The notes under the pieces: model-generated
What the model was told of the DNA's origin: nothing
The model's database searches: none
The model's input: the letters and a program-made list of their open reading frames with translations, nothing else
Assembly: GCA_034717495.1 (NCBI GenBank)
Contig: JAYELL010000028.1
Location: 1 to 46,689, forward strand
From: Chloroflexota bacterium
Lineage (GTDB): Bacteria; Chloroflexota; Anaerolineae; JAAEKA01
DNA length: 46,689 bases
Direction: 5' to 3'
Translations under genes and position numbers: made by a program
Shown: positions 36,796-45,957 of the stretch, piece after piece
How the letters are laid out: every line of letters begins with the position of its first letter
Position numbering within the stretch: position 1 is the first letter of the stretch

Positions 36796-37977
36796 CTATA
36801 GATAATCTCGCAACTGCCGGCTTCGGCTGGGGTGCCGTAGCCGGGCGAGGGCTTCCTGTTCAATCTGCCGAATTCGTTCCCGAGTCAATCCGAACATCTC
36901 GCCGACTTCCTGTAGGGTATAGGTATGACCATCCAGCAGTCCGTAGCGCAGGCGCAGAATACGCTCCTCGCGCGGCTGCAGGGTATCGAGCAGGTCGTTA
37001 AGTCTTTCTCGCAGAAGGGCCTGTTCGGCGCGCTCCGACGGCTCCGGGCTATCATCGTCCTCGATGAATTGCCCCAGAGTACTCTCCTCTTCCTCTCCGA
37101 CAGGTTGCTCCAGAGAAAGGGGGCGTACAGCAGTTCGGAGGTAGCGATGTACCCGTTCCGCCGGCAGTTCAAGGGCCAAAGCGAGTTCTTCAGGCGTAGG
37201 CTCACGCCCCAGGGACTGCTCCATTTCCTGGCTCGTGCGTCGTAATTTGAGCAACTTCTCGCTCATGTGAACGGGCAATCGAATGGTTCGTCCCTGGTCT
37301 GATACAGCTCGACTGACCGCCTGGCGGATCCACCATGTGGCGTAGGTGCTGAACTTGTAGCCCCGCTCCGGATCGAATTTGTCAACGGCTCGCATCAAGC
37401 CCAGGTTGCCTTCCTGGATCAAGTCGAGAAAGGGAACACCATGGCCGATATATCTTTTGGCAACACTGATGACAAGCCGGCTGTTGGATTCGATCATGCG
37501 TCGACGAGCTTGCTGTCCCAGAACCACAGCTGCCCTCATCTCCGACTCTTCGCTCGATGTGAAGTCTGGATCGGCGTCGAGGCGGATTCCTGCCTCCTTG
37601 CCAGAAACAACACGGGTTGCCAGTAACTTCTCTTCGTCGGCCGTTAGCAGTGGATGTGCGCCCATCTGACGGAAATAGAGATCCACAGCATCTCGCGCCA
37701 GTGTGAGATCATCTTCACCTTTGGCTGATGTTGGTCTGGTAGGAGGTGATTTAGCCTCCTCTTCGCTATCTCCAGACTGATCTTGAACAGGAATGTCCAG
37801 CTCTCGCAACCGAGCAAACAGATCTTCCAGGACATCAAGCCGCTCTTCGATTTCGGGCAGCGCTTCTAAGATCTCATCATAGGTGATGAAGCCTTGAGCA
37901 GATGCATTCTCAAGGAGTTCGTTGAGCGCATCATTTTGTTCGGTATGTTCGATTTCTTGCGTTTTTTCTTCGGCCAT
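36796..37977 (-). CDS. sigA: RNA polymerase primary-type sigma-70 factor
   Basis: This 393-residue sigma factor has an acidic N-terminal region, region 1.2 (DAVDLYFRQMGAHPLLTADE near residue 96), region 2 with RLVISVAKRYIGHGVPFLDL and GYKFSTYATWWIRQAVSRA near 205, region 3, and region 4 with the helix-turn-helix TLQEVGEMFGLTRERIRQIE near 363. The full region 2.4 and 4.2 sequences fit recognition of TTGACA/TATAAT promoters like those seen in this window. I chose ATG 37977 (MAEEKTQ), 34 bases after the DksA-like gene; a longer frame from 38076 would overlap that gene. Several primary-like sigma factors are common in this phylum, so whether this is the main one is open. Confidence 0.9.
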   Translation of the reverse strand: MAEEKTQEIEHTEQNDALNELLENASAQGFITYDEILEALPEIEERLDVLEDLFARLRELDIPVQDQSGDSEEEAKSPPTRPTSAKGEDDLTLARDAVDLYFRQMGAHPLLTADEEKLLATRVVSGKEAGIRLDADPDFTSSEESEMRAAVVLGQQARRRMIESNSRLVISVAKRYIGHGVPFLDLIQEGNLGLMRAVDKFDPERGYKFSTYATWWIRQAVSRAVSDQGRTIRLPVHMSEKLLKLRRTSQEMEQSLGREPTPEELALALELPAERVHRYLRTAVRPLSLEQPVGEEEESTLGQFIEDDDSPEPSERAEQALLRERLNDLLDTLQPREERILRLRYGLLDGHTYTLQEVGEMFGLTRERIRQIEQEALARLRHPSRSRQLRDYL

Positions 37978-38011
37978 AGACCCGGTTAGTGCGCGAGACG
38001 TTTCGGCGGAC

Positions 38012-38368
38012 TCAAACTGCCTCTTTACGAGGCCTTGAAAACCATGTGCCTTGCGGTATGTTTGCGCAGCGGACACAGCGTTTGGTATGTGGCAGGATCT
38101 TCAACCGTTCAGGATCGATGCCCTTTCCACAGGCTTCACATATGCCGTACTGGCCACTGTCACTTCGCGCGAGTGCCTCCTCGATTTCAGTGATTCTCTT
38201 GCGCAACGCGGCGCGCCGTGACAGATTCATTTCCCAAGTGGCAATTTCGGGACTACCTACACCGAGACCGAAATCCGGTCGGTGCCGGAGTTGTCTGTCG
38301 AGCGTCACCAGTTGCTCTCTTGTTTCCTTCAATTCCTTCTGAAGTTGCTCTTGTGGGTCATTGCGCAC
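38012..38368 (-). CDS. DksA/TraR-type zinc-finger protein
   Basis: This 118-residue protein has a coiled-coil N-terminal half (QLQKELKETREQLVTLDRQL) and a C-terminal four-Cys zinc finger, YGICEACGKGIDPERL followed by TKRCVRCA. The tip of the coiled coil and finger match the DksA/TraR family, members of which bind the RNA polymerase secondary channel. The start is GTG 38368 (VRNDPQ), six bases after AAGGAG on the minus strand; the frame is open further upstream but has no family match there. It is followed by the sigma-factor gene, so two RNA polymerase-binding proteins share one transcript. Confidence 0.88.
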   Translation of the reverse strand: MRNDPQEQLQKELKETREQLVTLDRQLRHRPDFGLGVGSPEIATWEMNLSRRAALRKRITEIEEALARSDSGQYGICEACGKGIDPERLKILPHTKRCVRCANIPQGTWFSRPRKEAV

Positions 38369-41288: not shown

Positions 41289-42917
41289 TCAAAGGTCTGC
41301 ATGCATGTAGAGGTCTTCGAGCTCAAAACCTCGTTGGCGATAATAATCCCGCGTCCCGATAGCGGCGATAACTGACAGGCGGCGGAATCCAGCTTCCTGT
41401 GAAAGCTGGCGAGCCTTTTCGATCAATCGAGTTCCCAGACCAAGATGTTGCGCCTCTCCGCTGCTGGAATCACCGATGTGCAGAGCGCGTCCATAGACAT
41501 GGACCTCCCGGATCAGCGCGTTGGCCTTGATTTCGCAGGGTGTTTCAACCGAACTGTCCGGCCAGGGCAACAACAGACGCAGAAAACCTGCCAGCTTTCC
41601 TTCCTGGGTTTCGAAGGAGAGGAAGTGCTCCAGCCCGGCGCCAGTTTCATAGCGCTGTACGTCAAGGCGGAGGGTATCCGGATCTGCGTCACGGTCGCGT
41701 ACCTCCCGGCAACGCATGCACTGGCATTGTCTGCCGCTGTCGGCCAGGGCCTTTTGGGCCATCTCCCGGAGATTGTTGAACCGATTGCCCTCGGCCACGT
41801 AATTGGCCGGAATGTCGCGGACCACGCGGCTCAGGCGGCAATAGCGGGGTGTCCTGGCTTTGCAGTCAGCTATCAGGGCAAGCAATGCACCTTCATCATA
41901 CGGTTGATAGCCCCCCTGCTGCCAGATCTCGTAGAGTTCGGTGCCCGCAATCAACGAGCATGGATACACTTTCAGTTCATCGGGTCGCATGTCAGGATCA
42001 TTCCAAAGGCGGGCGTAGTCTGCCAGATCGCTCTCCGGTGTGGCTCCCAGCAGGTTTGGCATCCAGTGGAGATGGAGCTTGAAACCGCTGGCTCGCAGCA
42101 TCCTGACCGCCCGGCGGGCAGTTTCCACATCGTGCCCGCGCCGGTTCAAGCGCAGGATTTCGTCGTCAAGACTCTGAATGCCGAGTTGGACACGGGTAAC
42201 GCCCAGGCGTCTCAGCCGCTGAATCTCTTCGAGGGTAACCCAATCGGGCCGGGTTTCAATAGTCAAGCCCACGCAGCGGGAGGTCGCCCGTTCGTTGAGA
42301 TGTTGGGCTTGCGCCAACGATGTTGAATCTGATCCATTCAGGGCATCCAGGCAGCGCCGGACGAACCATTCGGTGTACTGGGGCGAGTAAGCGGACCAGG
42401 TGCCGCCGAGGATCAACAACTCAACCTTCTGAATTGGATGTCCCACGGCATCAAAGGCCTCAAGCCTGCCTCGGGTCTGGCGAAAGGGATCGAATTCGTA
42501 GCGAAGCGCCCGCTGTGCGCCCGGTTCCAACGACAGATAGCTTTTGGGCATATCGGGATCGTTCGGACAGAAGATGCAGTGGCCAGGACAACCGGCCGGC
42601 TTGGTCAGCACTGCAACAGGCGCGATACCTGACTGGGTTCGCACCGGTTTCATCTGAAGGCGGTAGAGCGTTTCCTTTTCAAAGGGCAGATCACCTGCTG
42701 CGACGAAATCGCGGTAAGCAGTCACCAGGTGGCTCTTGCTGAAGAACCCGGAGCCATCCCGCGGGTGTTTGCGCAGGGTTCGGTGATAGAAGCGATCGTC
42801 GAAGTTGGGAGCGGACCTGATCGCCTCGATAATGGCGAGCAGCTCTGACCGGTAGCGGTCGGTATCGATCTGCTTATATTTTCTTGCAGTTGCGTCGACT
42901 TTTTTTCGTTCAGCCAC
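41289..42917 (-). CDS. elp3: Elp3-type radical SAM/GNAT tRNA-uridine modification enzyme
   Basis: This 542-residue protein has the full Elp3 architecture. The N-terminal lead includes PVRTQSGIAPVAVLTKP, which is typical of the family. The radical SAM site is GCPGHCIFCPND with Cys110, Cys114 and Cys117, then LILGGTWSAYSPQY and RPDWVTLEEIQRLRRLGVTR. The C-terminal GNAT domain has LGLGTRLIEKARQL near residue 497 and GTRDYYRQRGFELEDLYM at the end. Elp3 is the catalytic subunit of Elongator, which places a carboxymethyl group on U34 of tRNA. Bacterial stand-alone Elp3 is known from Dehalococcoides, also in this phylum. The start is GTG 42917, only 18 bp from the divergent Trm9-like gene. Confidence 0.93.
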   Translation of the reverse strand: MAERKKVDATARKYKQIDTDRYRSELLAIIEAIRSAPNFDDRFYHRTLRKHPRDGSGFFSKSHLVTAYRDFVAAGDLPFEKETLYRLQMKPVRTQSGIAPVAVLTKPAGCPGHCIFCPNDPDMPKSYLSLEPGAQRALRYEFDPFRQTRGRLEAFDAVGHPIQKVELLILGGTWSAYSPQYTEWFVRRCLDALNGSDSTSLAQAQHLNERATSRCVGLTIETRPDWVTLEEIQRLRRLGVTRVQLGIQSLDDEILRLNRRGHDVETARRAVRMLRASGFKLHLHWMPNLLGATPESDLADYARLWNDPDMRPDELKVYPCSLIAGTELYEIWQQGGYQPYDEGALLALIADCKARTPRYCRLSRVVRDIPANYVAEGNRFNNLREMAQKALADSGRQCQCMRCREVRDRDADPDTLRLDVQRYETGAGLEHFLSFETQEGKLAGFLRLLLPWPDSSVETPCEIKANALIREVHVYGRALHIGDSSSGEAQHLGLGTRLIEKARQLSQEAGFRRLSVIAAIGTRDYYRQRGFELEDLYMHADL

Positions 42918-42935
42918 GTATCAGACCAGTTTCCA

Positions 42936-43670
42936 ATGGATCAGCCAGTAATAGAACGCCTGGTTACCATCAATCGAGAATTTTACCATAGGTTTGCCGA
43001 TCAGTTCGCCAACACCCGCGGACCACAGCAGCCCGGTCTGCTGCTGCTCCCGGATTTCCTGCCGCGATCAGGCCGCCTTCTTGATATCGGCTGCGGAAAC
43101 GGGCGCTTTGCCCTGGTGCTGGAACAGCGAGAGCTATTGATCGACTACCTCGGCATCGACGCCAGCCGCCCTCTGCTTGAAATTGCCCGGGAAACCACCA
43201 ACGACCTGCGTTATGTGCGCACCGCGTTCCAGCAAGTCGATGTGATGGCTGAAAACTGGGCACACGAGTTGCAGGAGGGCAGCTTCGACGCCATCGCTCT
43301 TCTGGCAGTGCTGCACCACATCCCCGGCCGTCAACGACGTCGCTCGCTGTTGGCGGGCCTGCGCGAACACCTTGCACCATCTGGTGTGTTGGCGATCTCT
43401 ACCTGGCAATTCCTGAACAGTGAACGGTTGAAGCGAAAAATCGTTCCGTGGCAGCAGATCGACATTGACAGCGATTCGGTTGAGCCCGGTGATTATCTAT
43501 TGGACTGGCAGCGAGGAGGAAGTGGTTTACGCTATTGTCATCTTATCGACGAGCGCCAACTTCGAGAGTTGGCAGCCGCGGCCGGGCTTGAGGTTCGGGA
43601 GATATTCCTGGCGGATGGCAAGGAGGGCAACCTGAATCTCTTTGCCATTCTTGCCCGAAATGGCCCTTGA
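42936..43670 (+). CDS. Trm9-like SAM-dependent methyltransferase (candidate tRNA U34 methylase)
   Basis: This 244-residue class I methyltransferase has motif I LLDIGCGNGRFALVLEQ near residue 48, an acidic end of strand 2 (LGIDASRPLLEIARE) and AVLHHIPGRQRRRSLLAGL near 130. Several stretches run parallel to Trm9/ALKBH8 methyltransferases in order: FYHRFADQFANTR at the start, GCGNGR, the AVLHH helix, a W after the fourth strand (ISTWQFLN), VPWQQ near 170, and a final RYCHLIDERQLRELAAAAGL. Trm9 methylates the carboxymethyl group that Elongator adds. The match is from my reading, not a search. The gene is divergent from elp3, so the two share one short control region. A small-molecule methyltransferase is the alternative. 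Confidence 0.7.
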   Translation: MDQPVIERLVTINREFYHRFADQFANTRGPQQPGLLLLPDFLPRSGRLLDIGCGNGRFALVLEQRELLIDYLGIDASRPLLEIARETTNDLRYVRTAFQQVDVMAENWAHELQEGSFDAIALLAVLHHIPGRQRRRSLLAGLREHLAPSGVLAISTWQFLNSERLKRKIVPWQQIDIDSDSVEPGDYLLDWQRGGSGLRYCHLIDERQLRELAAAAGLEVREIFLADGKEGNLNLFAILARNGP

Positions 43671-44734: not shown

Positions 44735-44836
44735 ATGAAGCGAAAAGGATTTGGAGCACGAATGCACGAAGGTTCCAAAAATGCAGTGTGTTTTATTGAG
44801 TCAAGAGATGATTGGGCTGAGGATCAATGGAGATGA
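44735..44836 (+). CDS. Possible 33-aa upstream frame coupled to the BTAD regulator
   Basis: ATG 44735 follows AGAGG and the frame of 33 codons ends at TGA 44834-44836, five bases before the likely regulator start and overlapping an alternative start at 44833 (ATGA). The product is small, basic at first and acidic later (GFGARMHEGSKNAV, then ESRDDWAEDQW). It may be a regulatory upstream frame; a chance frame is quite possible. Confidence 0.3.
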   Translation: MKRKGFGARMHEGSKNAVCFIESRDDWAEDQWR

Positions 44837-44841
44837 CTGCA

Positions 44842-45759
44842 ATGAACGGTTTCAGGGTGCACCTGTTCGGCAGGTTTGAAGTTGCGTGGGACGGTAAGGT
44901 TGTCGAGGGGTTGGAGGCGCGCAAGGTTCGGGAGCTTTTTTGCTACTTGCTTTTGTTCCGGTCGCGCACCCATGCACGAGATGTGCTGGCTGATCTGGGG
45001 TGGCAGGATCGCTCGACCAGCCAGGCCAAGAAGTACCTTCGCCAGGCGCTATGGCAACTCCAGACTGCCCTGACGGTGCCATCGGCTGACGAGGCACTGC
45101 TGCTGGTCGAACAGGAATGGGTTCAGATCAATCCCAGGGCATCGCTGTGGCTCGATGTGACAATGATCGAAATGGGCTACCTGCAGGTCAAGGGTATCCG
45201 GGGCAGGGATCTGCAGAACGAGCAGGCGGCTCTGATTGGCGCTGCCTTGCATCATTATCGGGGTGATCTCCTGGAGGGCTGTTACAGGGATTGGTGTATC
45301 TTTGAACGGGAGCGTTTTCAGGGGATCTATCTGGCAATGCTGGATAAACTGGTGAACTACTGTGAAGCGCACGGCCGGTACGAAGAGGGTCTGGAACATG
45401 GAGCAAAGATCCTGCGTTGCGACCGGGCGCGGGAGCGGACCCATCGCCGTTTGATGCGTCTCTACTATCTGGCCGGCAACCGGACTGGTGCACTTCGCCA
45501 GTACCGGGCGTGCGTAGATGCCCTGGCCCAGGAGCTTCAGGTCGAGCCGGCCGGCAGCACGAGGGCCTTGTACGAGGAGATTCGCTCGGACCAGTTGGGA
45601 AGTGTCGAGGCGGCTCGCCCACCTGCGCCTATGCCGGTATCCGGGACCGGTGTTACCCTTCCTGAAGTATTGGAACGGCTGGACGATCTTGAAACTGTGT
45701 TGGCAAGTATTCGCGAGCAACTGCTGCAAAATGCGATCGCCACGCATCCCTATCGATAA
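44842..45759 (+). CDS. BTAD-domain transcriptional activator (SARP-like)
   Basis: This regulator of 305 residues has an N-terminal winged-helix domain (FRVHLFGRFEVAWDG, then ARKVRELFCYLLLF and KKYLRQALWQL) and a bacterial transcriptional activator domain of TPR-like helices (HHYRGDLLEGCYRDWCIFERER and RTHRRLMRLYYLAGNRTGALRQY). The tail has a Pro-rich linker and a short coiled coil (LERLDDLETVLASIREQLLQN). No ATPase domain is attached, so it is the short form. I prefer ATG 44842 (MNGFRVHLF), nine bases after GGAG; ATG 44827 and 44833 are in frame upstream. Its targets are unknown. Confidence 0.85.
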   Translation: MNGFRVHLFGRFEVAWDGKVVEGLEARKVRELFCYLLLFRSRTHARDVLADLGWQDRSTSQAKKYLRQALWQLQTALTVPSADEALLLVEQEWVQINPRASLWLDVTMIEMGYLQVKGIRGRDLQNEQAALIGAALHHYRGDLLEGCYRDWCIFERERFQGIYLAMLDKLVNYCEAHGRYEEGLEHGAKILRCDRARERTHRRLMRLYYLAGNRTGALRQYRACVDALAQELQVEPAGSTRALYEEIRSDQLGSVEAARPPAPMPVSGTGVTLPEVLERLDDLETVLASIREQLLQNAIATHPYR

Positions 45760-45772
45760 GGAATAGGGAGAT

Positions 45773-45892
45773 AAGGAGACAAGGAAACAAGGAGACAAGG
45801 AAACAAGGAGACAAGGAGACAAGGAAACAAGGAAACAAGGAGATAAGGAGACAAGGAGACAAGGAGATAAGGAAACAAGGAGACAAGGAGAC
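45773..45892. repeat. Tandem repeat, 15 copies of an 8-bp unit
   Basis: Fifteen exact-length units of AAGGARAY follow one another, mostly AAGGAGAC and AAGGAAAC with two AAGGAGAT. It starts 14 bases after the BTAD regulator. The minus strand could encode a monotonous Leu/Ser/Pro/Cys repeat, but no start or family supports this. Copy number is likely variable. Confidence 0.95.
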
Positions 45893-45957
45893 AAGTACAA
45901 CACTATGTTTGCACTTTGGCATATCTTGAATAGACGGGCACGGCCCAAATCGGGATA

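Follow-up and report, generated by a model that had tools for sequence, protein, structure and literature searches.

Background

The usual enzymes of the bacterial tRNA wobble uridine are MnmE and MnmG, which act on C5 of U34 (cmnm5U34). MnmL/MnmM (YtqA/YtqB) combine an Elp3-like radical-SAM protein and a methyltransferase for U34, a make-up similar to that of the gene pair described here. In eukaryotes, the methyltransferase Trm9 requires the zinc protein Trm112. The other Elongator subunits are, to our knowledge, not expected in bacteria.

In the eukaryotic mcm5U34 pathway, Elongator is followed by Trm9-Trm112 or ALKBH8-TRMT112 (PMC5372719). Mutation of R29, H115, R241, Y243 or N271 of yeast Trm9 impairs tRNA binding and turnover, effects being described for R29A and H115A, and the active-site lid of the enzyme consists of two beta strands bearing the VPW and RYY motifs (PMC5372719). 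Archaeal Elp3 forms cm5U in vitro, and Trm9 converts cm5U into mcm5U (PMC7663514, PMC5372719). Among archaea, mcm5U is documented in H. volcanii, and a cluster of elp3 with trm9 is reported for Sulfolobus solfataricus (PMC5372719, PMC7663514); the published Trm9 candidates were limited to Sulfolobales and Halobacteriales. As for bacteria, one review found no detectable relatives of the Trm112-partner methyltransferases (PMC5372719), another places bacterial Elp3 in a single clade, Dehalococcoides, without direct product evidence (PMC7663514), and bacterial Elp3 is called rare in PMC6367351. No paper on a bacterial Trm9 or on an exclusion between Elp3 and MnmG was found by a full-text search that included few subscription journals, so that an earlier description is possible.

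The window analyzed here, i.e. the whole stretch of 46,689 nucleotides from a Chloroflexota genome (G000), carries elp3 next to a methyltransferase gene. As in eukaryotes, a homologous Elp3 and a Trm9-like enzyme with counterparts of R29, H115 and R241 would act in the same order (PMC5372719), whereas here the two genes form a divergent pair, Trm112 is inconsistently present and the Y243 position is occupied by a cysteine (C201). The stand-alone Elp3 is shared with the archaeal elp3-trm9 systems of Haloferax and Sulfolobus, from which the present pair differs in being bacterial, one Aenigmatarchaeota locus (L143) also carrying it. Compared with MnmE/MnmG/MnmC (cmnm5U/mnm5U34), the wobble position and the expected role are the same, but proteins and chemistry are unrelated.

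Results and discussion

The divergent gene pair

The elp3 gene (radical SAM/GNAT tRNA-U34 enzyme; 41289-42917, minus strand) starts with GTG and codes for 542 aa. The gene of the Trm9-like class I SAM methyltransferase (42936-43670, plus strand) starts with ATG and codes for a 244-aa protein, hereafter P0001. Both reading frames and the head-to-head spacing of 18 bp between their start codons (42918-42935) were as originally predicted. Two ordinary promoters would not fit into 18 bp and must therefore sit within the opposite coding sequences; a single, weak sigma-70-like match at 42805-42833 does not amount to evidence of function. The divergent arrangement suggests co-expression of the two genes.

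Elsewhere in the window, genes for the biosynthesis of amino acids and nucleotides (his, pur, ilv, leu; recognized by eye) formed an extended series over 11930-36000, which was followed by a sigma-70 gene (36796-38076). Near the window end, a DDE-type transposase fragment (PF13546; 45958-46371) lay downstream of a BTAD-domain regulator (44827-45759), and a low-complexity reading, (LLVSLSPC)n, between these two on the minus strand (about 45650-45950) is probably a simple-sequence repeat.

The Elp3 protein is intact, as had been claimed from its CxxxCxxC motif and GNAT domain. It scored 501 bits against the NCBIfam model TIGR01211 (residues 85-539), 150 bits over the cut-off of 350, and matched solved Elp3 structures with an E-value of 1e-119 (phmmer, PDB). 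The radical-SAM cluster motif was found at C110-C117 (C110PGHCIFC) and a zinc-type CxCxxC motif at residues 398-403. The acetyl-CoA-pocket residues named for Dehalococcoides mccartyi Elp3 are K77, K193, E386 and Y441 (PMC6367351), and all four were present (K164, K280, E471 and Y525). The D. mccartyi enzyme, whose structure is solved, belongs to the same Elp3 family as that of the window but is devoid of the N-terminal extension of about 88 aa found here, which was also absent from the Dehalococcoides-type Elp3 of locus L014. A divergent Trm9-like neighbour was found at three loci encoding this 459-aa type as well (L014, L017 and L018); no mention of such a gene beside D. mccartyi elp3 was encountered in PMC6367351 or PMC7663514. 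Identity with MnmL/MnmM was ruled out by the scores of the radical-SAM partner, namely 501 bits for ELP3 against 51 bits for TIGR01212 (cut-off 180).

Similarity of the methyltransferase to Trm9

Pfam and NCBIfam searches with P0001 returned generic methyltransferase domains only, and every equivalog remained below its cut-off. The scores of the named methyltransferases were 35 bits for UbiG (cut-off 103), 25 for UbiE (216), 27.5 for BioC (185) and 30 for CmoA (193), i.e. so far under the cut-offs that a UbiE/UbiG-type identity was rejected. A single-sequence phmmer search of the PDB listed Trm9 among many methyltransferases and did not discriminate between them; profiles did. The relatives on which the profiles were built had been gathered by their position next to elp3 and not by likeness to Trm9. 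The profile built from 25 methyltransferases encoded beside elp3, run against 177,635 PDB sequences, had Yarrowia lipolytica Trm9 (5cm2_Z) as its top match (E-value 7e-28; 100.5 bits vs 85.7 for the next), with an alignment extending through the C-terminal lid and RYYHL region. The same chain came first with Dehalococcoidia-type relatives alone and with a wider profile of 53 relatives from several phyla, while the lead of Trm9 over generic methyltransferases was marginal for the P0001 sub-family alone (1.9e-11 vs 2.6e-11). In the reverse search, with the Trm9 chain as query, the elp3-linked gene ranked first in nine of nine genomes; in the source genome, the gene of P0001 had an E-value of 3.5e-7 and the runner-up 0.005. 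At 19 of 21 non-gap alignment positions with a conservation of 80% or more in the family, the residue was that of Trm9; the TR arginine, the histidine pair and the lid arginine are among them. The profile search put forward as a check of the original prediction thus pointed to Trm9 and not to UbiE/Coq5, and the Trm9-like reading of P0001 is supported by profiles, reverse search and conserved columns.

Most motifs on which this reading had been based were located in P0001 and held on alignment with Trm9. They include TR (T27-R28; 43014-43019), whose arginine aligns with that of the Trm9 TR motif and is invariant among 53 relatives, the SAM-binding motif I GCGNG (52-56; 43089-43103), AVLHH (124-128), whose histidines (127-128; 43314-43319) align with VIHH of Trm9, and RYCHL (199-203). 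The 'VPW' at residues 170-172 did not correspond to that of Trm9, the aligned tryptophan being W191 in 'DYLLDW'. Counterparts of yeast R29, H115 and R241 (R28, H127/H128 and R199, respectively) were kept in 98-100% of 53 relatives. The Y243 position was replaced by C201 in P0001, where the adjoining Y200 is conserved; a tyrosine was kept at this position in at least 90% of Dehalococcoidia-type relatives. For N271, a candidate is one of the asparagines within 'GNLNLF' of P0001, and Dehalococcoidia-type proteins display an invariant asparagine (N212 of L014) in the corresponding last-strand region, the alignment of this strand being uncertain.

The AF2 model of P0001 (pLDDT 96.4) contained a predicted hairpin (186-191 and 197-202; 43491-43541, plus strand) which carries W191, R199 and Y200 and matches the two-stranded active-site lid of Trm9. 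Among Foldseek matches of this model, Trm9 came sixth (third distinct protein), so that structure does not discriminate; Trm9 had the highest sequence identity among the 50 matches listed. A phylogenetic tree had long branches, resolved neither the deep forks nor the joining point of Trm9, and was not used as support. There is good support for the P0001 family working like Trm9; that P0001 may be Trm9 itself is a weaker claim on sequence grounds, one residue tested in yeast (Y243) not being matched.

Distribution and linkage of the pair

The distribution of both genes was analyzed in 201 genomes across the phylum Chloroflexota, with the model cut-off for Elp3 and a profile threshold of E<=1e-25 for the methyltransferase. 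Elp3 was found in 38 genomes. The methyltransferase was present in 37 of these, 12 of which were outside the training alignment, and in no genome without Elp3. The pairs were divergent and within 2.5 kb of each other in 34 of the 37 genomes, and unlinked or on other contigs in the remaining three; in a set of 30 loci examined, 27 had the two genes divergent and near. The exception among Elp3 genomes (G192, locus L026) is a 100%-complete genome with no recognizable methyltransferase, which might be a natural case of cm5U as the end product.

The methyltransferase profile was also run against GTDB genomes. Of the 80 loci obtained in this way, by methyltransferase similarity alone, 61 had elp3 in the examined flank, divergent in all cases. 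According to the record titles, which could be wrong in single cases for metagenome bins, these 61 belonged to Chloroflexota, Patescibacteria, Myxococcota, Acidobacteriota, Verrucomicrobia, Deltaproteobacteria, Phycisphaera and an Aenigmatarchaeote. Starting from elp3, an upstream and divergent methyltransferase gene was seen at 15 of 16 loci of the Myxococcota sample, the sixteenth stopping at a contig edge, and at 18 of 30 loci of Patescibacteria. Adjacency was therefore conserved in the gene-neighbourhood survey that had been suggested, always divergent where the genes were linked, and across several phyla. It is far beyond chance. A lineage accident was ruled out, since the methyltransferases of two deep Chloroflexota groups are only 21-27% identical and yet occupy the same divergent position, which was also seen in other phyla.

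Additional genes were found between elp3 and the methyltransferase gene at some loci. In many Anaerolineales, the gap of about 900 bp is explained by an intervening PAPS-reductase gene (cysH-like, PF01507), co-directional with elp3 (L038:3199-3948; also L070, L077, L084 and L093). In family f5 (G168 and G200), a gene resembling M50-type membrane proteases (by eye) separates the still divergent pair (L027:3211-4371 and L028:73-1224).

Distribution of the eukaryotic partner protein was less regular. Among the 37 genomes with the pair, 24 encoded short stand-alone Trm112-like proteins (PF03966); none was found in the other 13, including all genomes of the Dehalococcoides/Dehalogenimonas-like family f16. 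The Trm112-like protein of the source genome was encoded beside htrA- and cinA-like genes (C76), unlinked to elp3. Either the bacterial methyltransferase works alone, or some Trm112 partners are too divergent for the PF03966 model.

Mutual exclusion with MnmE and MnmG

Neither mnmE nor mnmG was found in the source genome, which is 95.6% complete. Among the 201 Chloroflexota, MnmG was present in none of the 38 Elp3 genomes vs 83 of the 163 others (Fisher, 9e-11) and MnmE in none vs 84 of 163; counted by family, MnmG was present in 0 of 15 Elp3 families vs 27 of 54 others (p 2e-4), and in 113 Myxococcota genomes, Elp3 was found in 16 and MnmG in 62 without overlap (0/16 vs 62/97, p 6e-7), these p-values being inflated by kinship, as genomes are not independent samples, but both of the well-powered phyla show the same exclusion. 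The Patescibacteria did not show any overlap either, but represent a poor test of exclusion, MnmG being rare in this sample (5/172; p 0.16). MnmG was also absent from 30 further genomes of mixed phyla carrying the pair. Over the 486 genomes of the three phylum samples, Elp3 never occurred together with MnmE/MnmG. This exclusion is new here and was not part of the original prediction. As MnmE/MnmG act on C5 of U34 and are excluded by Elp3, the distribution provides strong indirect evidence that the Elp3/methyltransferase pair serves tRNA U34, and it identifies the pathway being replaced.

At the thresholds used, some 80 of the 201 Chloroflexota genomes, many of them well complete, had neither Elp3 nor MnmG, with examples in families f14, f17, f24, f27, f29, f49 and f52. 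Such genomes may have no xm5U34, a third route or divergent enzymes.

Proposed pathway and alternatives

According to the model that we favour, Elp3 would use SAM radical chemistry and acetyl-CoA to carboxymethylate U34 at C5 (cm5U), and the Trm9-like enzyme would then esterify the carboxylate of cm5U with SAM to yield mcm5U34. Together, the two steps would take the place of MnmE/MnmG, on which most bacteria rely and which yield cmnm5U34. It is quite probable that the gene pair forms such a self-contained wobble-uridine pathway, from cm5U to mcm5U34, in replacement of MnmE/MnmG. The minimal cm5U/mcm5U pathway put forward for the two genes in the original prediction is supported by the similarity to Trm9, the conserved adjacency and the exclusion of MnmE/MnmG, while the chemistry, with tRNA U34 as substrate and mcm5U as product, is inferred.

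Another possible explanation is that the methyltransferase acts at U34 after Elp3 but with a product other than the mcm5 ester, for instance by methylation of an amide or amino group, as MnmC and MnmM do in the MnmEG pathway. Linkage and MnmEG exclusion place the methyltransferase in the same pathway and go no further, the P0001 sub-family has a lid sequence of its own (DYLLDWxxGG), and eukaryotes derive ncm5U from the Elp3 product too (PMC6367351). This alternative is nevertheless unlikely, since the residues positioning cm5U34 in yeast Trm9 (TR, HH and the arginine of RYY) are retained (PMC5372719). Less likely still, the methyltransferase could target another component of translation, such as a different tRNA position, a release factor or rRNA, its link with Elp3 reflecting a shared theme only. 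Further Trm112-type methyltransferases do modify the tRNA body, eRF1 and rRNA (PMC5372719), and the literature search gave no biochemistry for the bacterial family; on the other hand, the one-to-one association with Elp3 (37 of 38 Elp3 genomes and no other genome at E<=1e-25) and the first rank of Trm9 among solved proteins make this reading quite improbable. A generic small-molecule methyltransferase of the UbiE/UbiG/Coq5 type, next to elp3 by chance, would agree with the generic domains, the sub-threshold equivalogs and the undiscriminating phmmer ranking, but is contradicted by the low scores of the UbiG, UbiE, BioC and CmoA models, the divergent linkage in many phyla, the reverse search and the co-occurrence counts, and is hardly credible.

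The mcm5U34 pathway remains the preferred reading. The pair recurs in distant bacteria, all devoid of MnmE/MnmG, and therefore probably represents an alternative, eukaryote-like finishing of the tRNA wobble base. We regard it as a bacterial variant of the known Elp3/Trm9 pathway. We would give roughly even chances to the wider proposal of a complete bacterial Elp3-Trm9 mcm5U34 pathway, present in several phyla as a compact divergent pair and replacing MnmE/MnmG wherever the pair is found, without the Elongator scaffold and often without Trm112.

Conclusion

The Trm9-like gene beside elp3 indicates to which end product bacterial Elp3 probably leads, and yields a directly testable prediction, the presence of mcm5U in bacteria. 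In humans, the same reaction depends on Elongator and has been connected with disease; a stand-alone version made of two proteins would be a simple system for its study. If the wider proposal is true, the 'eukaryotic' wobble-uridine route would be an old prokaryotic module of two enzymes.
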